64,000 bases of DNA from contig NZ_CP064048.1 in NCBI RefSeq assembly GCF_020923495.1, positions 273,501 to 337,500 of the forward strand, in the 5' to 3' direction. The notes beneath the pieces were generated by a model. That model was not told the origin of the DNA and made no database searches. It saw only the letters and a list, made by a program, of their open reading frames with translations. This document shows, one piece after another, positions 2,063-12,315 of the stretch. The first letter of the stretch is position 1. Each line of letters starts with the position of its first letter. The stretch is from Brevibacillus sedimenti (GTDB lineage Bacteria > Bacillota > Bacilli > Brevibacillales > Brevibacillaceae). Position numbers and translations under genes: made by a program.

Positions 2063-3736
2063 TTACGCTCCTTCACGCAAAATCGCTCGCAGCCGCTCTT
2101 TGACCGCCCGCTCGTTTTCTGCCAGCGCAGCCAGCCCGGCGTGAATCTCCGCCAGTTCACGCAGTGCGCCCAGCCGCCCATTCAGCGCTTCGGCCTCCGC
2201 TTCTGCCTCTTTACGCAGCCGCGCCGTCACCTGTTCGATGAACGCCAGTCCTGCACGGTGGTACTCCGCCTTGATCGCGTTGGAAATATCGGAACAGTAG
2301 TTCATCACGTATTCGCGCGTGCCTGCTCCCTCCTTCACAAGGGCGGCGAGAAATTCAGCCGTCACCTCGATCCGCGTGGCGTGCACGGCGGCGTGGTAGG
2401 CTTCGTCGCGGATGCCGTACGCCTCGGGCAGCTTGCTCACCAGATCCTTGAAATGGAAGTCGAGATTGCCGGCCACCTTTTCGCGGATATCAGCCAAGAG
2501 GGCGTCCAGCCGCTTGGCCCGTTCCTCCTCCGTTTTTCTGGCGGCAAAGAACAGGCCCACCTTGAATCCCGGCTTGCGGCTTTCCAGATAGCGCTCCGCC
2601 GCTTCGTTGGTGCTGTAATACGTCAGCCGCGCGTTGTCAAGCAGGGCGGACAGCTCTTTTTCCATCTGCTTGCGCGCCTCCTCGGCCCGGTTGGCCAGCG
2701 CAGACTGCTGCGCTTCCGCCTCCCGGAGCGCCGCTTCCGCCTGGGCGGCATCGCTCTTGTCCACGCCGTCCACCGCCAGTGCCTCCAGTCTGCTCTCCAG
2801 CGCTTCGCGGGCCGCTGCGTTGCGCTGGGCGATCCCTTTCACGTGCTCGTCGATCAGGTGCTCCGCCGAGTGGACGACGCTCTCCCCAATCAGCCTCTCC
2901 CGCTCACCGATCAGCGCCAGCAGCTTCTCCCGAAACGCCTCGTACTGGTTTTCCGGGTGATCCGGCTCCGCCAGCGACGTGTAGAAAATGCCGTCCGGCT
3001 TGATGTTCCACGTGGCGAACGCCTCTTCCACGCTCTCCTTGTAACTGTCAAAATCAAGCTCAAAGTCGATGTGCTTGTCAATCATGTTGACGACCAGGTA
3101 GACCGGTTTTCCGCGGTCTTTCAGCGCTTTGGTAAAATTGAAGTTCTCCTCCGCCTGCACGTGGTTGTAGTCCATCATGTAGACGACCACGTCCGCCAGG
3201 TGAAGCGCCGATTCGGTCGCGATCTTGTGGGCGGCGTCGGTGGAATCGATCCCCGGCGTATCCAGAAGACTGGAACGCTCGTCCAGGAACGTCCCCGGAT
3301 AGGAGACTTCCACCCATTCCACGGTGTCCCCATCCACGGCAAACTGCTTCAGCTTTTCCATTTCGGTGTCAGGGTCAAAGGTCAGTACGCCGCTGTTGCG
3401 CGTATAGACGCGAGCAGCCTTTTCCCCGCCGCGGATTTTGACCACGTTGGCGCTGGTGGGAATCGGATTGGACGGCAGCAGATTGACGCCCAACAGCGTA
3501 TTGATCATCGTCGATTTGCCGGCGGAAAAGTGGCCGCAAAATGCGATGTTCAGCTCTGCCTGCCGCGTCTTCTCGGCAAGCTGCGCCATTTTCCCCGGCG
3601 TCGTGCCGTCTTTCGCCTCTTCCATCATCGATCCGATCTGTTCCAGTGTATCAGCAAGGCGGGCAAAATCCGTTGCCCGCTCCATTACCTGTGTGTCAGG
3701 CACCCCTATCATCCTCTCGTCTTTCTTCCTCTCCAC
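2063..3736 (-). CDS. Dynamin-like GTPase, first half (DynA D1-like)
   Basis: A 557-residue dynamin-family GTPase with P-loop GHFSAGKST (about residues 68-76), switch motif DTPGIDS (about 158-164) and a G4-type NMIDK (about 197-201), then long charged helical segments. The GTPase core is followed by stalk-like helices; a basic pair of short hydrophobic stretches near residue 390 (KVGLFFAARK) could contact lipid. It is the promoter-proximal gene of a two-gene operon, and its length matches the N-terminal dynamin unit of B. subtilis DynA (about 560 residues). It is divergent from the germinant receptor operon, sharing a 190 bp intergenic region. An in-frame Met at residue 9 is an alternative start. 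Confidence 0.88.
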   Translation of the reverse strand: MERKKDERMIGVPDTQVMERATDFARLADTLEQIGSMMEEAKDGTTPGKMAQLAEKTRQAELNIAFCGHFSAGKSTMINTLLGVNLLPSNPIPTSANVVKIRGGEKAARVYTRNSGVLTFDPDTEMEKLKQFAVDGDTVEWVEVSYPGTFLDERSSLLDTPGIDSTDAAHKIATESALHLADVVVYMMDYNHVQAEENFNFTKALKDRGKPVYLVVNMIDKHIDFELDFDSYKESVEEAFATWNIKPDGIFYTSLAEPDHPENQYEAFREKLLALIGERERLIGESVVHSAEHLIDEHVKGIAQRNAAAREALESRLEALAVDGVDKSDAAQAEAALREAEAQQSALANRAEEARKQMEKELSALLDNARLTYYSTNEAAERYLESRKPGFKVGLFFAARKTEEERAKRLDALLADIREKVAGNLDFHFKDLVSKLPEAYGIRDEAYHAAVHATRIEVTAEFLAALVKEGAGTREYVMNYCSDISNAIKAEYHRAGLAFIEQVTARLRKEAEAEAEALNGRLGALRELAEIHAGLAALAENERAVKERLRAILREGA

Positions 3737-3928: not shown

Positions 3929-5500
3929 GTGTATCGCAAAAATAAGAGGCCGACAAAAACAATGGCTTCGCAGTTGAAGCGACGCCCGCAGCAGACGCCC
4001 GACCTGTCCACCCCGCTCTACCCCCGTCTTGAGGAAAACCTGACGGCCATCAAGCAGACGTTGGGTAACCCGCAAGATCTGATCGTCCGGACATTTTCGA
4101 TCGACAATACCTCGCTGACGTGCGCCGTGGTTTGCTTCGACGGACTGGTGGACTCTGATCTCATCAATGACAAAGTCGTCAAGCACATCCAGCTGACACT
4201 GCCGGCATCGGGCAAGAAGCTCCCTCCGCCGGGCGAAGAGATGCTGACGTTCCTGTTGAGAGAAGTGCTGTCTACCATCGAGGTCAAACTGGAATCAACA
4301 TTTGAAGCCATGTATGACCGGGTACTCGCAGGAGATACCGCCCTGTTTGTTGACGGCACAGCCCAAACCATCGTGATCGACAGCCGAGGCTGGCAGACCC
4401 GCACTATCGACGAGCCGGTGTCGGAAGGGCTGGTGCGGGGCCCACGGGAAGGGTTTACCGAGAACATCCGGGACAATACGATGCTCGTCCGGCGGCGGGT
4501 CAGGGACGTCCAGCTCCGCTTTGATACCATGAACGTGGGACGGCGCAGCAAGACCGATTTGATCATCGCCTACATGCAGGACATCGCCAATCCCGCGCTC
4601 GTGCAAGAGGTGAAACGGCGGCTGGCCACCATCGACGTTGATGAGGTGGAAGAATCTGGATTTATTGAACAGTGGATCGAAGACGACTTTCTTTCGCCGT
4701 TCCCGCAATGCCAGGTGACCGAGCGGCCGGACAAGGTGGCTTCCGCGCTGTTTCAAGGCAGGGTGGCCATCTTGCTGGACGGTACCCCGATGGGCCTGAT
4801 CGTGCCGGTTACCTTCAGCATGCTGCTTCATTCGCCGGAAGACTTTTACGAGCGCTGGATTGTCGGAACGCTGGCCCGACTGCTTCGCTACGTCGCCGCG
4901 TTTCTGGCGGTCTTTTCTCCAGCGTTGTACGTCGCGCTCGTCACCTATCATCCCGGACTGATCCCATCCGACCTGGCCTTCTCTATCGCAGCGACGAGAG
5001 AAGGCGTTCCGTTTCCGGCGTTTGTCGAAGCGCTGCTGATGGTGGCGACGATGGAGCTGCTTCAGGAGGCGGGGCTGCGCCTGCCGAAACCAATCGGTCA
5101 GACGGTGGGGATCGTCGGCGGTTTGGTGATCGGCGAATCGGCCGTATCAGCCGGACTCGTCAGCCCGGTCATGGTCATCGTCGTCGCCCTGACGGCGATC
5201 GCCTCGTTTGCCATCCCGGCGTACAACCTGGCGCTGACGTTTCGCATGATCCGCTTTGTTGTGATGTTTGCCGCCGCTATCTTCGGCCTGTACGGAGTCG
5301 TGCTCATGTTTGTCGCCATCTTTATTCACCTGGCCAATCTGACGAGCCTGGGTGTGCCGTACCTGACGCCGTTTGCGCCGCAACTGCTGAACGACTGGAA
5401 GGATCTGTTGCTGCGTGCTCCCGTGACGTTTATGCGAAAACGGCCGGAGACCGGGCAGCCAAAAGACCACATTCGCATGAAGACAGGGGATGCGCCATGA
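3929..5500 (+). CDS. Spore germinant receptor A subunit (GerA/GerKA family)
   Basis: A 523-residue GerA-family protein: a long cytosolic N-terminal domain (about residues 1-285), a cluster of membrane helices (about 290-490) and a short basic tail. A subunits form an oligomeric channel in the inner spore membrane and trigger germination when germinant binds. I choose GTG at 3929 because AGGAGGG sits 8 bp upstream (3914-3920); the longer frame from an ATG at 3899 would place that site inside the gene. The stop overlaps the start of the B gene (ATGA), so the two are translationally coupled. Recognisable family features include the RRRVRDVQLRFD region and the hydrophobic SPALYVALVTYHPGLIP segment. 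Which receptor (A, B or K type) it belongs to cannot be told from sequence alone. Confidence 0.93.
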   Translation: MYRKNKRPTKTMASQLKRRPQQTPDLSTPLYPRLEENLTAIKQTLGNPQDLIVRTFSIDNTSLTCAVVCFDGLVDSDLINDKVVKHIQLTLPASGKKLPPPGEEMLTFLLREVLSTIEVKLESTFEAMYDRVLAGDTALFVDGTAQTIVIDSRGWQTRTIDEPVSEGLVRGPREGFTENIRDNTMLVRRRVRDVQLRFDTMNVGRRSKTDLIIAYMQDIANPALVQEVKRRLATIDVDEVEESGFIEQWIEDDFLSPFPQCQVTERPDKVASALFQGRVAILLDGTPMGLIVPVTFSMLLHSPEDFYERWIVGTLARLLRYVAAFLAVFSPALYVALVTYHPGLIPSDLAFSIAATREGVPFPAFVEALLMVATMELLQEAGLRLPKPIGQTVGIVGGLVIGESAVSAGLVSPVMVIVVALTAIASFAIPAYNLALTFRMIRFVVMFAAAIFGLYGVVLMFVAIFIHLANLTSLGVPYLTPFAPQLLNDWKDLLLRAPVTFMRKRPETGQPKDHIRMKTGDAP

Positions 5501-6603
5501 ACAACGTTCCCTATGCGGATCAAAAAATCCGCACCAGAGAGATGGTGATCATCATCGCCAATGCCGTGATCGGTGTAGGCATCCTCACTTTTCCCCGTTC
5601 GATTGCGAAGGAGACCGATGCGTTTGACGGATGGATTTCTGTCCTCATCGGCGGCGCTGCCGTCTGTCTCATCGGCTGGCTGTTGGGCAAGCTGGCCAGC
5701 CGCTTTCCCACCCGTACCTATTTCGATTACGTGGCGCTGATCGTCGGCCGGCCGTTCGCGTATCTGCTCACTCTGCTCTTTGGTGTGTACAGCATATTGA
5801 TGGTCTCCTTTGAAGTCCGGGCTGTCGGCAATATCGCCAAGCAGTACCTGTTCACGAACACGCCGGTGGAGATGATCACGCTGGCCTTTTTGCTGATCGT
5901 CCAGTATGCCGTGGCAGGATCGCGCATGGCGCTGCTGCGTCTCAATCTCATCTTTCTGCCGATCGTGCTGCTGGTCATTCTCATGGTCCAGATGTACACG
6001 CTGCGCTTTTTGGAATGGGAAAACGTCCGGCCGTTCTTCTCTACCGACTGGACGACCCTGCTCAAAGGTGCGAAAGGAGTGACCCTGTCCATGTCCGGCC
6101 CGGAAATCGTGCTTTTTTACACGCTCCTGATGAAACGTCCGCAGGATGCCCCCAAGTCAGTCATCCTGGGACTGGCGATTCCTGTCCTGCTGTACATGAC
6201 CATTTACATGGTGATCATCGGTGTCTTTTCAGCGGCGGTGGCCAGAAATCTGACCTTTCCCACCATCGAGCTGGCAAAAGGTGTCGAGGTGCCCGGCGGG
6301 TTTATCGAGCGGGTCGAATCCCTCTTTTTCACCATCTGGATCATGACCATCTTTAACACCTGCACCATCTGGTTTGATCTGACCATAACTGCGCTGCGGT
6401 CCGTATTTACCCGGTTTTCAAAATTTGCGTGGATTCTCATCCTCTCGCCGATTATCTACCTGATTGCGATGCAGCCGCAAAACCAGGTCGAGTTTCTTAC
6501 CTTTGGCGACAGGCTCAGCTACATCGGTGTGGTGATCGCCTATGCCATTCCGCTCCTGCTGCTGACGATCGCCAAACTGCGGGGGGTGAAGGAGAATGAT
6601 TGA
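5497..6603 (+). CDS. Spore germinant receptor B subunit (GerB/GerKB family), copy 1
   Basis: A 368-residue integral membrane protein of the spore germination / amino-acid permease (APC-like) family with about ten hydrophobic segments. It has the typical early motif GVGILTFPRSIA and a conserved segment around LIVQYAVAGSRMALLRLN. B subunits bind the germinant. The ATG overlaps the stop of the A gene by 4 bp and its own end overlaps the C gene by 8 bp, the usual ABC arrangement. A near-identical paralog lies 1.4 kb downstream at 8039-9145. Confidence 0.93.
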   Translation: MNNVPYADQKIRTREMVIIIANAVIGVGILTFPRSIAKETDAFDGWISVLIGGAAVCLIGWLLGKLASRFPTRTYFDYVALIVGRPFAYLLTLLFGVYSILMVSFEVRAVGNIAKQYLFTNTPVEMITLAFLLIVQYAVAGSRMALLRLNLIFLPIVLLVILMVQMYTLRFLEWENVRPFFSTDWTTLLKGAKGVTLSMSGPEIVLFYTLLMKRPQDAPKSVILGLAIPVLLYMTIYMVIIGVFSAAVARNLTFPTIELAKGVEVPGGFIERVESLFFTIWIMTIFNTCTIWFDLTITALRSVFTRFSKFAWILILSPIIYLIAMQPQNQVEFLTFGDRLSYIGVVIAYAIPLLLLTIAKLRGVKEND

Positions 6604-7840
6604 CCGCCGATTCGTTCGCACTGCCTTGATCGGTCTGTGCGCATTCCTGACAGCCGGGTGTTGGGATCAGCTGCCCATCGAAGAGCGCGGTTTTGTCATC
6701 GGCGTGGCGATTGACTTCCCCCGCTCCTCAGCCGCAGAAGAAGCAGCAGAAAAGGAAGCGCCAGACAGGCCGGAGGGACGATGGCGGTTTTTGGTCACCC
6801 ACCAGTTTGTGGTGCCGGGCGGACTGGTTTCCGGTTCGCAGCAAAGAGGCGTCCAGGGCAGTGCCAACGAGGCGTTTTTGAACCTCGCATCAGAAGGGGA
6901 TTCCCTGCTGGAGATTTCCAGTGAGCTGGCGACGCGGAGCAGCCGGTTTCCGTTTTACCAGCACCTGAAAGTGCTGATCATCTCCGAAGAGGTGGCCAAG
7001 GCCAATCACGCCTTTGCCGACGCGCTCGACTTTTTCCTGCGCGATCCGGAACTGCGCCGTAGCAGCAAGGTGATGATCGCCAAGGGGGACGCCAGGCCCG
7101 TCCTGGAAATCTCCCCTATTAACGAGAAACTGCCGGCCATGTACATCAACGCCGTGGCCGAAAACATCCAAAAAAACGCGCGGATATTGCCGGAAATATG
7201 GTTGGGTGAATGCCACGAAAATCTGATGAACGAGCACAGCTTTGTGCTTCCCCGCATTACCTCAAACGAAAAGGAAGTGAAAGTGGCCGGCGCGGCCGTG
7301 TTTAATGGAAAATCAAACCGCATGGTCGGTTTTTTGGGCGAAGAAGAAACGGAAGGCTTGAACTTCCTCACCGACCGCGTTAAGGGGGGCATGCTGAAGG
7401 CAGTGCTCGATCGCGAACTGGTGACATTTAACATTGAGTCGGCCAGCCGGAAAATCAAGGCGGATACCCGGCACAAGGAGCGGATGCGATTCGTCTACAC
7501 CATCACGTGTGAAGGCGTGATCGACGAGACGTTCAAGCCAATGAATTACCTGAGCAAAGATGCGTTAAAAACGCTGCAGGATCACCTGGCCAAAGAGATC
7601 GAGCGAATGGCCCGCGACACGATCAGAAAGGTGCACAAGCAGATGAAAACAGATGTGCTCGGGTTGGGCACTTACTTGAAACAGGAGCATCCCCACCTCT
7701 GGAAGCAGCTCAAACACGACTGGGACTACGGCAGAAATTACTTCGCATCGAGCGAAATCGACGTCAAGGCAACCGTGTACATCCGCAATGTGGGCGAGAT
7801 CAATACAACGGAAACCCGCAGCAGGAACGAAGTACGTTAA
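6596..7840 (+). CDS. Spore germinant receptor C subunit, lipoprotein (GerC/GerKC family)
   Basis: A 414-residue GerC-family lipoprotein. The signal peptide ends in lipobox LTAGC with the modified Cys near residue 22, followed by the family's CWDQ...EERGFVIG motif. GerC anchors on the outer face of the inner spore membrane and is required for receptor function. The start overlaps the B gene stop by 8 bp. The stretch SSAAEEAAEKEAPDRPEGR (about residues 42-60) is a charged insertion shortly after the N terminus. Segments of this gene reappear, collapsed, at 9143-9194. Confidence 0.93.
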   Translation: MIDRRFVRTALIGLCAFLTAGCWDQLPIEERGFVIGVAIDFPRSSAAEEAAEKEAPDRPEGRWRFLVTHQFVVPGGLVSGSQQRGVQGSANEAFLNLASEGDSLLEISSELATRSSRFPFYQHLKVLIISEEVAKANHAFADALDFFLRDPELRRSSKVMIAKGDARPVLEISPINEKLPAMYINAVAENIQKNARILPEIWLGECHENLMNEHSFVLPRITSNEKEVKVAGAAVFNGKSNRMVGFLGEEETEGLNFLTDRVKGGMLKAVLDRELVTFNIESASRKIKADTRHKERMRFVYTITCEGVIDETFKPMNYLSKDALKTLQDHLAKEIERMARDTIRKVHKQMKTDVLGLGTYLKQEHPHLWKQLKHDWDYGRNYFASSEIDVKATVYIRNVGEINTTETRSRNEVR

Positions 7841-7852
7841 GGCGGTGTGGCC

Positions 7853-8002
7853 ATGTTGAACAAGCTATTCGGCATTCTTCCCCCGTTTATGACATGTGCC
7901 GGGGCGGTGCTGTCTGTGCTGATTCCGTGGAGCCTCCACATCATGTTCCGCAAGCTGCGCGAGCACGGCGATCCGCCATGGAAATGCGACAAGCGGGAAT
8001 GA
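7853..8002 (+). CDS. Small membrane ORF after gerC (candidate receptor D subunit)
   Basis: A 49-codon ORF beginning 12 bp after the C-gene stop: a short N terminus (MLNKLFGILPPF), one hydrophobic helix (about residues 12-31), then a basic/charged tail ending KCDKRE. A weak purine-rich site (AAGGCGG) precedes the ATG. Some Bacillus receptor operons carry a small D gene encoding a protein of about 70-75 residues with two membrane helices that tunes germination; position and character fit, but this one is shorter and shows only one clear helix. It may be a reduced D subunit or a non-functional leftover. Confidence 0.5.
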   Translation: MLNKLFGILPPFMTCAGAVLSVLIPWSLHIMFRKLREHGDPPWKCDKRE

Positions 8003-8038
8003 GCGCAAAAACATTCGCATGAAGACAGGGGATTCGCC

Positions 8039-9145
8039 ATGAACAACGTTTCCTATGTGGATCAAAAAATCAGTACCCGAGAGATGATCTTCATCATCGC
8101 CAATTACGTGATCGCCGTAGGCATCCTCACCTTTCCCCGTTCGATTGCGGAGGAAACCGATTCGTTTGACGGGTGGATTTCCATCCTCATCGCCGGCACT
8201 GTCGTCTGTACCATCAGTTGGCTGTTGGGCAAGCTGGCCAGCCGCTTTCCCACCCGTCCCTTTTTCGAGTTAGTGGCGGTGATCACAGGCCGGCCGTTCG
8301 CGTATCTGCTCACTCTGCTCTTTAGCGTGCACAGCATATGGATGGCCTCCTTTGAAATCCGGGCTGTCGGCATTATCACCAAGCAGTGCCTGTTTACGAA
8401 CACGCCGGTGGAGATGATCACGCTGGCCTTTCTGCTGATCGTCCAGTACGTTGCGGCTGGATCGCGCCTGGCGCTGCTGCGTCTCAATCTCATCTTTCTG
8501 CCGATCGTGCTGCTGGTCATTCTCATGGTCCAGATGTACACGCTGCGCTTTTTGGAATGGGAAAACGTCCGGCCGTTCTTCTCTACTGACTGGATGTCCC
8601 TGCTCAGCGGTGTGAAAAGATTGGGCCTTTCCATGACCGGTGGGGAATTGGTGCTGTTTTACACGATTCTGATGAAACGTCCGCAGGATGCCCCCAAATC
8701 AGTCACGCTGGGAATGGCGATTCCCATCCTGCTGTACATGACCATCTACATGATAGTCATCGGCGTCTTTTCATCGGAGGTGGTCAGAAATCTGACCTTT
8801 CCCACCATCGAGCTGGCAAAAGGTGTGGAGGTGCCCGGCGGGTTTATCGAGCGGGTCGAATCCGTCTTTTTCACCATCTGGATCATGACCATCTTTAACA
8901 CCTGCAGCATCTCGTTTGATCTGGCCATAACCACGCTGCAGTCCGTGTTTACCCGGATTTCAAGATTTACGTGGATTCTCATCCTCTCGCCGATTATCTA
9001 CCTGATTGCGATGATGCCGCAAAACCAGACCGAGTTTTTTACCTTTGGCGACCGGCTCGGCTATTTCGGAGTGGTGATCGCCTATGTCATCCCGCTCGTG
9101 CTGCTGGCGATCGCCAAACTGCGGGGAGTGAAGGATGGCAGCTGA
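8039..9145 (+). CDS. Spore germinant receptor B subunit, duplicated copy 2
   Basis: A 368-residue paralog of the 5497-6603 B subunit with most positions identical by eye, including long shared runs around LNLIFLPIVLLVILMVQMY. Differences cluster in loops and in some membrane positions, for example YVIAVGILTFPRSIAEETDS against AVIGVGILTFPRSIAKETDA, and TAGSRL-type changes. The frame is intact and its start context (ggggattcgccATG) is copied from the 3' end of the A gene; no strong new ribosome site is visible beyond ACAGGGGA. B subunits set germinant specificity, so this may be an alternative B subunit sharing the A and C proteins of the same operon. Confidence 0.9.
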   Translation: MNNVSYVDQKISTREMIFIIANYVIAVGILTFPRSIAEETDSFDGWISILIAGTVVCTISWLLGKLASRFPTRPFFELVAVITGRPFAYLLTLLFSVHSIWMASFEIRAVGIITKQCLFTNTPVEMITLAFLLIVQYVAAGSRLALLRLNLIFLPIVLLVILMVQMYTLRFLEWENVRPFFSTDWMSLLSGVKRLGLSMTGGELVLFYTILMKRPQDAPKSVTLGMAIPILLYMTIYMIVIGVFSSEVVRNLTFPTIELAKGVEVPGGFIERVESVFFTIWIMTIFNTCSISFDLAITTLQSVFTRISRFTWILILSPIIYLIAMMPQNQTEFFTFGDRLGYFGVVIAYVIPLVLLAIAKLRGVKDGS

Positions 9146-9194
9146 CCGCTGATTTGTGCGCATTGAAGCGCCAGACGGGCCGGTGGGATGGTGG
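9143..9194 (+). pseudogene. Collapsed gerC remnant
   Basis: Directly after copy 2 of the B gene, three short pieces of the C gene occur in order: tgaccgctgatt (compare 6601-6612), tgtgcgcatt (compare 6636-6645) and gaagcgccagacgggccgg (compare 6755-6773). The intervening C-gene sequence is deleted and nothing downstream matches. This shows the duplication once included the C gene's beginning. Confidence 0.8.
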
Positions 9195-9259
9195 CTGGAC
9201 TAAAAAAGGCAGCGGGCTGCTGCCTAGCCCGCCGCCTGCCCGGTGCGGACCGGGAGCGC

Positions 9260-11677
9260 TTAGGCGCGCTCGGCGGACCGCAGCAGCCGCATGCCGTTGG
9301 CGATCACGATCAGGGAGCTTCCCGTATCGGCCAGCACAGCCATCCACAGCGTGGACCAGCCAAACGCGATCATCAGCAGAAAGACCGCCTTCACCAGCAG
9401 CGAAAACGCGATGTTCTGCTTGATAATGCGCAGCGTCCGCCGGCTGAGATTGACGGCGTAGGGAAGTTTGGACAGATCGTCGGCCATCAGGGTGATGTCG
9501 GCCGTTTCCAGCGCCGTATCCGATCCGGCACCGCCCATGGCGATGCCCACGGTCGCCGCAGCAAGCGCCGGCGCGTCATTGACGCCATCCCCCACCATGG
9601 CCACGCTGGCGCCAGCAGACTGCCACTCCCGGATGAGGGTCAGCTTGTCTTCCGGGAGCAGTTCGGCATGGCAGTCGATGCCTCCCAGTTCGCTGGAGAC
9701 AGCGCGAGCCGCGCCCCGGTGATCTCCGGTCAGCATGACCATCCGCTCTATCCCCAGGGAGCGCAGTTCCCGAATCGCTGTCCTGCTGGACGGACGGACC
9801 GCGTCGGCCAGCGTGATCAGCGCCACCACCTGCTGTTCCGTGCCCAGCACCATCAAGGTGTGGCCGGACTCTCGAAGCTGCTCGATCCGCTGCTCGACCC
9901 GCTCCAGCGAGAGCCCCGCGTCGCCGGAGATCCACCGGGGGTTTCCGATCATGTACGTGATGCCGTTCACCCGGGCTTTCACCCCGCCGCCGGGGACGGA
10001 GACAAACTGATCGTTGTCAGGGATGGCCACGCCCTCCTGCTTCGCCTTGCGGACGATGGCTGCCGCCAAGGGGTGTTCCGATCGGGCTTCCACGGCAGCG
10101 GCGATGGCGAGAACCTCCACCTCCGTCAGAGCAGACACAGGGATGATCCCGGTTACTTCGGGAAGCCCCTGGGTGAGCGTCCCCGTCTTGTCAAAGGCCA
10201 TCACTGAAACGGCACCGAGCCGTTCCAGATGGATGCCCCCTTTGATCAAAATCCCGCTGCGTGCGGCATTGCCGATGGCGGAGACGATAGAGACAGGGGT
10301 GGAAATGACCAGCGCGCAGGGGCACGAGACGACAAGCATCATCAGCGCTCGGTAAAACCAGTCCGCAAACGGCTGCTGGAACAGAAGCGGCGGAACGGCA
10401 GCAATCGCGACAGCCACGGCGATCACCGCCGGCGTGTAGTAGGCGGCAAAGGCGTCGACAAAGCGCTGCGACGGCGCCTTCTGCGCCTGTGCTTCTTCCA
10501 CGAGATGAACGATCCGGGACAAGGTGTTGTCTTCGGCCCGTCTGGTCACCCTGACCGTCAACGCTCCCTGCTGGTTGATCGTGCCGGCGAACACCTCGTC
10601 TCCGGCTCCCTTCTCCACCGGTACGGACTCGCCGGTAATGGGCGCCTGGTTGACGGTCGACCGCCCGTCGGTCACGATGCCGTCCATCGCGATCTTTTCC
10701 CCCGGTTTGACCAGAATCGTGTCGCCGACGCGAATCTGTTCCACCGGAAGCGTCAACTCCCGACCGTCGCGCAGGACGAGAGCTTCAGCCGGCGCCAGTT
10801 CCATCAGGCTGCGCAGCGATCGTCTCGTCCGGTCCATGGTATAGGCCTCCAGCGTTTCCCCCAGCGAAAACAGGCAGACCACCGCCGCTCCTTCCGCCCA
10901 CTCGCCGATCGCCACCGCCCCGATGACAGCGATCGTCATCAGAAAGTCGATGCCGACCGTTCGCGACTTGAGACCGTACAGGCCGCTTTTGGCGATGCGA
11001 ACGCCGCCGGCCAGGATGGACAGCGCGTAGAGCAGCGTGATGAGCGGCTCCGGTGCCGCCGGCGCGAACCCCAGGCCCCAGGCGGCGAGAAACAAAAGGG
11101 AGGCAGTCACGGTCGACCAGGCTTTTTTGTTTTGCCGCCAAAAGCCCCGCTCTTCCTCCCGCCTGTTCGCTTCCTGCTCCCGGACGGCTTCGTAGCCCGC
11201 CTGGCGCACAGTGTCGATCACGCGGTCAACTGCCGTTCCGTCATGCTCGACGGTCATGATCGCCGCGCCGAAATTGACCTGGACGCGATGCACGGCGGGC
11301 AGGGCTCCCACCTTTTTCTCCAGCTTTTGCGCACAATCGGCGCAGTCCATCCCGCGGATGCGGAAGCGAGCCGTGACCGTCCCCCGCTGCTGCGGGGCGA
11401 CGTCGTAGCCCAGTTTCCGGATGGTGTCGACAATCTGCTCATAGGTCGTCCGATGCGGATCGTAGCTGACGCTTGCCTTGGCGGCGGCAGCGTTCACTTC
11501 TGCCCGCGCCATCCCGGGCAGCCGGGCCAGGCTTTTCTCCAGACGTGCCGCACAGTCGGCACAGTGCAGACCGATCAGGGACAATGTTTCACTGCAGGTC
11601 TCAACGGCAGTACCGTTGCCGCAGCATCCTGTTTCCGCGTGGGAGGCCGCTTTGCAGCACTCATCCGTATTGGCCAT
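9260..11677 (-). CDS. cadA: Cd2+/Zn2+/Pb2+-exporting P1B-type ATPase CadA
   Basis: A heavy-metal efflux ATPase of about 805 residues. N-terminal Cys-rich stretch (ECCK...GCCGNG), then two heavy-metal-associated domains with CADC motifs (GLHCADC and GMDCADC), TGES actuator motif, the CPC metal site in a membrane helix (SCPCALV), DKTGTLT phosphorylation loop, SEHP motif and GDGVNDAPAL hinge. CPC plus HP is the zinc/cadmium/lead pattern. I start at the ATG at 11677 (MANTDECC), which has GGGGTGG upstream; an in-frame ATG eight codons earlier lies inside the putative operator. It is downstream of, and co-directional with, the ArsR-type gene cadC, separated by a terminator, so it likely has its own metal-regulated promoter. 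Confidence 0.95.
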   Translation of the reverse strand: MANTDECCKAASHAETGCCGNGTAVETCSETLSLIGLHCADCAARLEKSLARLPGMARAEVNAAAAKASVSYDPHRTTYEQIVDTIRKLGYDVAPQQRGTVTARFRIRGMDCADCAQKLEKKVGALPAVHRVQVNFGAAIMTVEHDGTAVDRVIDTVRQAGYEAVREQEANRREEERGFWRQNKKAWSTVTASLLFLAAWGLGFAPAAPEPLITLLYALSILAGGVRIAKSGLYGLKSRTVGIDFLMTIAVIGAVAIGEWAEGAAVVCLFSLGETLEAYTMDRTRRSLRSLMELAPAEALVLRDGRELTLPVEQIRVGDTILVKPGEKIAMDGIVTDGRSTVNQAPITGESVPVEKGAGDEVFAGTINQQGALTVRVTRRAEDNTLSRIVHLVEEAQAQKAPSQRFVDAFAAYYTPAVIAVAVAIAAVPPLLFQQPFADWFYRALMMLVVSCPCALVISTPVSIVSAIGNAARSGILIKGGIHLERLGAVSVMAFDKTGTLTQGLPEVTGIIPVSALTEVEVLAIAAAVEARSEHPLAAAIVRKAKQEGVAIPDNDQFVSVPGGGVKARVNGITYMIGNPRWISGDAGLSLERVEQRIEQLRESGHTLMVLGTEQQVVALITLADAVRPSSRTAIRELRSLGIERMVMLTGDHRGAARAVSSELGGIDCHAELLPEDKLTLIREWQSAGASVAMVGDGVNDAPALAAATVGIAMGGAGSDTALETADITLMADDLSKLPYAVNLSRRTLRIIKQNIAFSLLVKAVFLLMIAFGWSTLWMAVLADTGSSLIVIANGMRLLRSAERA

Positions 11678-11697
11678 TCGTTCCACCCCGCTCAAAC

Positions 11698-11717
11698 ACA
11701 TGATTAATTGTTCATGT
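11698..11717 (-). promoter_or_regulatory. Probable CadC/ArsR operator upstream of cadA
   Basis: ACATGA and TCATGT form a perfect 6 bp inverted repeat around AT-rich ACAATTAA on the minus strand. The core ATGAACAnTTAnTCAT resembles operators of the SmtB/ArsR family. It lies just downstream of the predicted cadA start of transcription and upstream of the cadA ribosome site, where a repressor would block the gene. Confidence 0.65.
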
Positions 11718-11734
11718 ATTTTATCCTCACAATC

Positions 11735-11764
11735 ATCTTATTTTTTCCGGCTGCAAAACGTCAA
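11735..11764 (-). promoter_or_regulatory. cadA promoter
   Basis: Minus strand: TTGACG (11759-11764), an 18 bp spacer, and TAAGAT (11735-11740). It is a moderate sigma-A match and sits directly in front of the palindromic operator at 11698-11717. Confidence 0.55.
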
Positions 11765-11813
11765 CACAATTTTTCCCGGGCGGACAGCCGTGCATGCAGG
11801 CCGCAGCGCAGAC

Positions 11814-11842
11814 AAAAAAACCCGCCTGCCAAGCAAGCGGGT
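11814..11842 (-). terminator. Terminator of cadC
   Basis: Minus strand: ACCCGCTTGC / GCAGGCGGGT stem (one mismatch) followed by seven T. It begins 10 bp after the cadC stop and separates cadC from cadA. Confidence 0.75.
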
Positions 11843-11851
11843 CTCGGACGA

Positions 11852-12220
11852 TCAGCCGTGTTTCATGTGCTGAAGCGTCTGCACGAATATCTGTTCAATA
11901 TGATCGTCGTCCAGGGAGTAAAAGACGGTTTTTCCCGCCTTTCGCCGTTTGACGATGCGCAGATTTCGCAGATAACGGAGCTGGTGCGACACCGCTGACT
12001 GCCCCATGTCCAGGGCCGTGGAGATGTCGTGGACGCACAGCTCCCTGTGCAATAAAGCGTAAATGATCTTGACCCGGGTAGGATCGCTCAGCGCGCGAAA
12101 CAGATCGGCGAGCGCCCCGGCCGTGTCGTTATCAATCATGGCTTCCTTTATTTCAGCGGCTGTCGGTTCCGTTCCTTGACACGTATCGTCACAGGAATCC
12201 TGCATCTCGTTTGATATCAT
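11852..12220 (-). CDS. cadC: ArsR/SmtB-family metal sensor repressor CadC
   Basis: A winged-helix repressor of 122 residues. It has the family motif ELCVHD in helix alpha-R region (about residues 62-67), the recognition helix QSAVSHQLRYLRNL and C-terminal YSLDDDHIEQIF. Cys residues in the N-terminal tail (DSCDDTC) together with the Cys of ELCVHD form the CadC-type soft-metal site that releases DNA when Cd, Pb or Zn binds. I start at ATG 12220 (MISNEMQ), preceded by GGGGTGG; the open frame runs 35 codons further upstream, but over the promoter. Confidence 0.92.
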   Translation of the reverse strand: MISNEMQDSCDDTCQGTEPTAAEIKEAMIDNDTAGALADLFRALSDPTRVKIIYALLHRELCVHDISTALDMGQSAVSHQLRYLRNLRIVKRRKAGKTVFYSLDDDHIEQIFVQTLQHMKHG

Positions 12221-12257
12221 CCAGTCACCACCCCAAAAGAGAACCGTTACGATTTCC

Positions 12258-12266
12258 ATTATAACA
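12258..12266 (-). promoter_or_regulatory. cadC promoter (extended -10)
   Basis: Minus strand TGTTATAAT: a perfect TATAAT with a TGn extension, 38 bp before the chosen cadC start. No good -35 hexamer lies 17 bp upstream, consistent with an extended -10 promoter. Confidence 0.6.
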
Positions 12267-12315
12267 GACAAATGAGTCAAAGTCGTGCCGAATGCCTGCC
12301 GCTCCAGCGTCGGAG

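Follow-up and report, generated by a model that had tools for sequence, protein, structure and literature searches.

A young tandem copy of a germinant receptor B gene in Brevibacillus sedimenti, a candidate alternative sensing subunit

The operon discussed here encodes a germinant receptor of the GerA type, in which A, B and C genes occur together, and lies on the plus strand of a 64,000-nt stretch of the Brevibacillus sedimenti chromosome (contig NZ_CP064048.1, positions 273,501 to 337,500; this whole stretch is called the window below). Its genes are arranged as A-B1-C-D, after which a second B gene, B2, follows. B2 is a recent tandem duplicate of B1, since the two are sister genes that lie near each other and the site of B2 is empty in relatives, and the balance of the evidence tilts towards B2 being a young alternative sensing subunit of the receptor. 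How germinant receptors gain new specificities is an unsettled question, and the extra B genes examined in this work are otherwise far more diverged. Here a young copy is present, the scars of its birth and the empty site can both be read, the A and C subunits are shared, and several of the residues changed in B2 align with pocket positions of Bacillus subtilis GerAB; the emergence of what may be a new germinant sensor thus becomes directly testable. If B2 indeed is such a sensor, spores may wake to a different signal. A literature search covering titles and the first part of abstracts gave no description of this Brevibacillus duplication.

The proteins encoded by B1 and B2 are 368 amino acids long and align without gaps at 81% identity, while the genes differ at 120 of 1104 nt. 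The intact frame of B2 and a likeness to B1 beyond chance bear out the initial annotation, which had recognised a tandem duplicate with fossil boundaries. It placed about 30 bp of the A-gene end in front of B2, and a copy of 28 nt is indeed present, with 27 matches to the original against 18 of 28 for the best other plus-strand match in the window. This copy carries the Shine-Dalgarno-like CAGGGGA of the B gene, located 6 nt before the B1 start in the original, and thus hands B2 a ready ribosome-binding site, which may explain why the A tail survived. Behind B2 the collapsed start of a C gene is found, of which the first three bases double as the stop codon of B2 and the C start codon is not preserved. 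The best gapped alignment divides this remnant into three pieces, as had been proposed: 9143-9154 corresponds to 6601-6612 (11/12), 9155-9164 to 6636-6645 (10/10) and 9165-9195 to 6755-6785 (27/31, where the best other match in the 64 kb, on either strand, is 20/31). A two-piece reading with one internal deletion fewer is also possible, in which 9143-9165 aligns without gaps to 6601-6623 (19/23, best chance match 16/23) and the third piece follows. The annotated limits, 5460-9194, proved right within a few bases, and the picture of a decayed C part next to a B frame that stayed open agrees with the remnant in pieces and the intact B2.

The size of the copied unit is another matter. The initial annotation had a block from the A-gene tail to the C-gene start copied downstream; it overlooked the D gene (7853-8002) and the absence of a DJ-1/PfpI gene at the insertion place. 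In front of the copy, the spacer behind D is joined to the A tail with about one shared base (A, 8011), as expected from tandem duplication of 5469-8010, a segment of about 2.5 kb that includes C and D. The tandem copying thus stands, and the unit was probably larger, running from the A tail through D and being trimmed later by deletion. This is also suggested by the DJ-1/PfpI gene, which is found behind the operon in all ten other Brevibacillus loci that were compared (L041-L050) and is missing here. A smaller unit from A tail to C start is possible, although it seems to us less natural. Copying of a smaller block into a deletion in one step would leave the same arrangement, and the data do not separate these routes.

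In the collections, the nearest relative is Brevibacillus thermoruber 423 (L041), with DNA identities of 90.8% and 93.5% in two long flanking alignments. Its gene order is A-B-C-D, a spacer, the DJ-1/PfpI gene on the other strand and the same metal-transporting ATPase gene, which represents the empty site. In place of about 640 bp of B. thermoruber (L041 12519-13157), the window has about 1190 bp that contain B2 and the remnants of C. The comparison with relatives that the initial annotation called for thus turned out in its favour: all ten other loci read A-B-C-D with a single B gene, at the position of B1. The DJ-1/PfpI gene behind these operons has the opposite orientation in L045 and lies about 2 kb further in L046; in the genome of the window, the best matches elsewhere are only 33% and 32% identical. 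At an E value of 1e-100, this type of B gene is present in 21 of 26 genomes of the genus, the own genome counted in, with two copies in the own genome and one in each of the other 20, and no match in the remaining five.

Trees were built with eight of the nine other Brevibacillus loci beside B. thermoruber, L043 being left out. B1 and B2 came out as sisters with an ultrafast bootstrap support of 98, and the approximately unbiased (AU) test on the full gene rejected both alternative groupings (P 0.0024 and 0.031), so that the unrelated origin which would have spoken against a duplication was not found; together with the 81% identity, the sister grouping rules it out. When nt 430-549 were omitted, the support was 94 and one alternative was still rejected (AU P 0.004). 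Site patterns with each of eight outgroups gave 20-28 sites joining B1 to B2, versus 7-16 and 13-18 for the alternatives. The synonymous distance (dS) is 0.141 between B1 and B2, 0.208 between B1 and B. thermoruber and 0.262 between B2 and B. thermoruber; for A, C, D and three neighbouring genes, the values between window and B. thermoruber range from 0.155 to 0.444. Because of the sister grouping and the lower dS between B1 and B2, the duplication probably took place once the lineages of the window and B. thermoruber had separated, and perhaps soon thereafter.

A stretch of 118 nt (B nt 431-548) is identical in B1 and B2 while B. thermoruber differs from them at several sites (run test p 0.00095; random placement p 0.0001). 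Gene conversion between the copies is possible in this tract; the reading draws on all variable sites, since a run test restricted to third codon positions did not point to conversion (p 0.45). Two other origins of B2 were considered. An assembly artefact is unlikely in view of the 120 differences and of the host chromosome being a single contig of 3.93 Mb. As to acquisition from outside the genus, no sequence nearer to B2 than B1 emerged from 60 relatives or from the 26 genus genomes, nor from 25 fetched loci, from which records very near the window's genome were perhaps left out.

What makes B2 of interest as a sensor is where it has changed. Residues of B. subtilis GerAB named in the available text of PMC8617281 and PMC8038838 were mapped with a constant offset of +1, anchored by N21/N22, G25/G26, Y97/Y98, F104/F105, E105/E106, S197/S198, G200/G201, T287/T288 and I290/I291; this mapping is our own, made from residue names without the GerAB sequence, and transmembrane segment (TM) 2 was placed by the offset alone. 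At 16 pocket and channel positions, B2 has five changes (I18F, A23Y, G26A, S200T, W292S) and B1 none; the branch before the duplication has two (A56V, L102M) and B. thermoruber none. Overall, the changes in B2 are concentrated in TM1, 2, 3, 6, 7 and 8 over TM4, 5, 9 and 10 (P 0.012); when TM5, into which part of the identical tract falls, is left aside, the enrichment weakens to P 0.079. Both glycines at the breaks in TM1 and TM6 are present in B1, whereas B2 keeps the one in TM6 and has alanine in TM1.

Several of these replacements have precedents. Among 72 distinct family sequences, B2 included, the TM1 place is occupied by glycine in 66 and by alanine in three; position 23 is tyrosine in eight and position 292 serine in nine. 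The two other sequences with alanine (L081/L108 and L087/L109) come from other genera, each is the sole B gene found beside A and C, and L081 also has the N-Y-x-x-A-x-G pattern. Alanine at the TM1 glycine may thus be compatible with a working receptor. At position 202, which adjoins the TM6 glycine, B2 alone among the 72 has glycine. Taken by their place in the family repertoire, the pocket changes favour remodelling over loss. A more specific proposal, that the lost TM1 glycine and the swapped pocket bulk (Ala23Tyr, Trp292Ser) provide a new trigger or a mere modulator of the B1 response, in a gene caught soon after its birth and with both copies under diversifying pressure, appears improbable to us.

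Both copies have evolved rapidly. The pairwise ratio of non-synonymous to synonymous substitution rates (dN/dS; omega in codon models) is 0.78 between B1 and B2, 0.39 between B1 and B. thermoruber and 0.45 between B2 and B. thermoruber; against the same species A, C and D give 0.16, 0.27 and 0.35, and three neighbouring genes 0.10-0.17. In a codon model, omega was 0.764 on the B1 branch, 0.771 on the B2 branch and 0.11 elsewhere, and a single ratio for all branches was rejected (twice the log-likelihood difference, 2dlnL, 57.8). The 52 amino acid changes of B2 have a mean profile log-odds score of -1.35, versus -3.48 (standard deviation 0.44) for random non-synonymous mutations, and the 27 changes of B1 score -0.84 versus -3.49; none of 5000 random draws reached the score of either copy. 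The new residue already occurs in the family at that place in 40 of 51 scored changes of B2 and 23 of 26 of B1, where 57% is expected. As yardstick, 68 of the 72 family sequences served, with B1, B2, the B. thermoruber B protein (L012) and a divergent paralogue from the own genome (L004) excluded.

When sites were divided into three conservation classes, omega on the duplicate branches was 0.27, 0.78 and 1.36, with 0.30 for the conserved class of B2. A model in which all classes are neutral was rejected whether the copies were taken together (2dlnL 28.1, P 3.5e-6) or singly (B2: 17.05, 3 degrees of freedom, P 0.0007; B1: 10.9, P 0.012). To judge from the substitutions, B2 is constrained and not simply dying, because the changes avoid conserved sites and the site-partitioned neutral model is rejected for each copy. 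Constraint is nevertheless clearly loosened in both copies, even at conserved sites, where omega of the duplicates is about ten times the background (0.27 vs 0.025). Branch-wise omega values for A, C, D, single B genes and two dynamin genes, with Brevibacillus borstelensis as outgroup, were set aside in favour of the pairwise values and the duplicate branches, because synonymous distances to the outgroup are saturated and changes are divided unstably over the branches of the window and B. thermoruber, as illustrated by values of 18 for the D branch, 2.8 for the B. thermoruber B branch and 0.42 for a dynamin gene of the window. The same saturated outgroup enters the duplicate-branch models and the profile test, where it matters less for B1 and B2 and affects the background values.

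Several results weigh against the reading of B2 as a young sensor. The gene is known from one genome. Without the identical tract, a grouping of B2 with B. thermoruber is no longer rejected (AU P 0.094), and the support for B1 with B2 is 82 on codon positions 1 and 2 and 41 on the third. A dN/dS near 1 had been named in the initial annotation as the mark of a dying copy, and the value of 0.78 formally answers to that description, although a dying copy does not follow from it, given the rejection of the partitioned neutral model. Gene-wide, fixing omega at 1 for B1 and B2 is not rejected (2dlnL 1.5, P 0.47); the acceleration is as strong in B1 as in B2 and could simply reflect constraint relaxed by redundancy; and in the variable class the excess of omega over 1 lacks significance (P 0.19). 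The enrichment of changes in the B2 pocket is borderline, with P 0.045 when stratified by conservation and 0.060 unstratified. Mutant phenotypes add to this. According to the available text of PMC8617281, B. subtilis GerAB G25A, which corresponds to G26A here, assembles and gives no germination with L-alanine, while Y291S, which corresponds to W292S, lowers GerAA levels, gives no germination and behaves as unstable. Bacillus cereus GerIB G25A, in what we take to be the same TM1 glycine, is severely impaired though germinosomes form, as far as described in the accessible part of PMC13170314. Because of these phenotypes, B2 can be said to carry natural changes at two positions that matter, and by analogy it could be inactive. 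Selection for an altered specificity, as suggested initially, is plausible, and the borderline enrichment does not carry it further than that.

Relaxation leads to the view of B2 as a redundant gene, strongly relaxed in its constraint, that heads to a pseudogene and adds only some dosage. We regard this as rather unlikely. It would fit the omega of the B2 branch, and the absence of stops from B2 is weak evidence to the contrary, as only about 1.6 are expected by chance (82 substitutions, a stop fraction of 2%). Another B-type match in the same genome (G000:C1:3580344-3581198, L006), adjoining a GerA gene (C1:3581282-3582628), also speaks for this view: it is interrupted by three in-frame TGA codons and, unlike B2, appears to be broken. 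Against decay, the changes in B2 avoid conserved sites, the conserved-class omega and the rejected neutral model indicate constraint, and not one indel occurred in the 1104 nt of B2, while the adjoining C remnant lacks its end as well as one or two internal segments.

The GerAB mutants suggest a different role, in which B2 joins A and C, does not respond, and thereby reduces the share of responsive receptors so that germination is spread over time. B2 has the natural equivalent of G25A, which in GerAB gives a stable complex without an answer to L-alanine (PMC8617281, available text), and as part of the same operon it may be produced at similar levels. Still, such damping is distinctly improbable in our view, since alanine is found at the TM1 place in two operons with a sole B gene (L108, L109), and A23Y and W292S suggest remodelling rather than simple inactivation. 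It can also be envisaged that an ancestral receptor for two germinants was split, with B1 and B2 each specialising. The equally raised omega on both branches agrees with such subfunctionalisation, as do eight positions that changed in both copies, including 202, but B1 is unchanged at the 16 pocket and channel positions and B2 has about twice as many changes as B1 (52 vs 27), which makes this unlikely as well.

If B2 is a young sensing subunit, its history may be pictured as follows. After the split from B. thermoruber, a segment of about 2.5 kb from A tail through B, C and D would have been tandemly duplicated by short-homology recombination. A deletion would then have taken away the larger part of the second C together with the second D, the operon end and the adjacent DJ-1/PfpI gene, the order of events and the unit size being our reconstruction. 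Retained was a second B gene with the ribosome-binding site of the A tail, located 36 nt behind D. Because of this short distance and the lack of a terminator-like site between D and B2 in a terminator scan, B2 is probably transcribed with the others as the fifth gene of one operon, which would be expressed in the forespore. Its protein most likely replaces B1 in some of the A-C complexes to give a second receptor, and with the remodelled pocket (A23Y, G26A, S200T, W292S) spores might sense a changed or wider set of germinants.

By curated cut-offs, B1 and B2 are both Spore_permease B subunits, with 240.9 and 234.5 bits for PF03845 (cut-off 23.4) and 239.4 and 231.0 for TIGR00912 (cut-off 139.55). 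A fold model of B2 made with 28 related sequences (mean predicted local distance difference test score 85.2, predicted template modelling score 0.84) has the predicted fold of the APC superfamily: matches to APC transporters span nearly the whole length, with Z 36.3 and a root-mean-square deviation (rmsd) of 3.0 over 348 residues for AdiC (5j4n), Z 33.6 and rmsd 3.2 over 350 for GkApcT (5oqt), and Z 34.5 for ApcT. A sequence search of solved structures with B2 gave no match up to E 1. The coordinates of the features are collected in Table 1.

Table 1 Features of the germinant receptor operon and its surroundings, in window positions
Feature	Position	Strand	Remarks
A subunit gene, GerA family	3929..5500	+	PF03323, E 4.6e-188; GTG start after AGGAGGG
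B1, original B subunit gene	5497..6603	+	Spore_permease PF03845; TIGR00912
C subunit gene, Ger(x)C	6596..7840	+	PF05504 + PF25198
D-like gene, 49 amino acids	7853..8002	+	one hydrophobic stretch; conserved GDPPWK-type end
Left junction edge, post-D spacer GCGCAAAA	8003..8010	+	alignable with B. thermoruber
A-gene tail copy	8011..8038	+	27/28 match to 5469-5496
B2, duplicated B subunit gene	8039..9145	+	intact, 368 codons
118-nt tract identical in B1 (5927-6044) and B2	8469..8586	+	B nt 431-548
Collapsed C-gene start	9143..9195	+	pieces of 6601-6612, 6636-6645, 6755-6785
Right edge, border to B. thermoruber-like sequence before the P-type ATPase terminator	9196..9206		shared sequence from ~9203
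Terminator-like hairpin of the convergent metal-transporting ATPase gene	9207..9237	-	terminator scan
Metal-transporting ATPase gene (P-type), convergent to the operon	9260-11701	-	

The final four bases of the A gene overlap the start of B1. The terminator scan found 12 sites versus 5.9 expected in shuffles, among them one weak plus-strand match inside B2 (8851-8865). Upstream of the A gene, a CGCATAATT element is present in four of the five Brevibacillus sequences examined; in the same five, a sigma-G-like pattern had no matches. The small gene directly behind C resembles GerUD-type D subunits in being a small protein of a receptor operon. It is named D-like only, because a simple hydropathy scan shows one hydrophobic stretch (about residues 4-32) and not the two transmembrane spans with a loop of the GerUD type. 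No Pfam or NCBIfam match was obtained for it at E 0.001; matches to the gene occur in 22 of the 26 genus genomes, the own included. With tblastn, relatives of about 50 amino acids were found following C in receptor operons of L041-L050 and L052-L059, and the G[DN]PPWK end is conserved in the six Brevibacillus sequences examined. Upstream of the operon lie two adjoining genes for dynamin-family GTPases (87-2054 and 2063-3736, minus strand), relatives of which occupy the same place in all ten other Brevibacillus loci. In L043 (Brevibacillus reuszeri NIT02), the C gene matches as two pieces in different frames (11112-12304), and so appears to be frameshifted or to contain a sequencing error.

With B. 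subtilis GerAB and Geobacillus kaustophilus ApcT, the two B proteins share the APC fold, and the breaks in TM1 and TM6 of B1 fall at the equivalent glycines, while B2 departs from them in having alanine for the TM1 glycine and a serine on the pocket floor. The GerUB and GerVB subunits of Bacillus megaterium, to which the two B genes had been compared initially, have a different background, since GerVB is encoded by a divergent plasmid gene adjacent to the operon, whereas B2 arose recently by tandem copying and lies within its operon. The likeness would be that A and C can work with a B subunit from another ABC set: a construct of gerUA, gerUC, gerVB and a D gene gave a working receptor, according to the available text of PMC4661057.

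Among the loci analysed here, L111, from a genome of the class, has an architecture similar to that of the window (A-B-C-B), and adjacent B genes occur in L053 and L114 (A-B-B-C) and L065 (B-B-C-A), while in L110 C and A are accompanied by four B domains spread over three frames. One of these frames in L110 (6592-8913, minus strand, G117) encodes 774 amino acids with two B domains, of which the halves are 63% identical and no stop lies between them, possibly a natural B-B fusion. In L053, from Paenibacillus piri, the first tandem B gene (8869-9984) has an odd TM1 (YIHGVLILTVP) without the usual GxG, and its neighbour has SxG. The B pairs in these five loci are 35-63% identical, versus 81% here, so B1 and B2 are the most similar of them; they are also the sole pair for which birth scars and an empty site were sought, and both were found. 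The ynd operon of Bacillus licheniformis likewise contains several B genes, of which one follows C; E in its gene names presumably stands for B. In the available text of PMC4021175, the order is D, E3E2, F1, E1, yndF2 is called a gerAC homologue, the operon is functionally uncharacterised and, different from the case presented here, no duplication scars are described. Operons with several B genes are thus already known, and B1 and B2 are a fresh case of this known kind.

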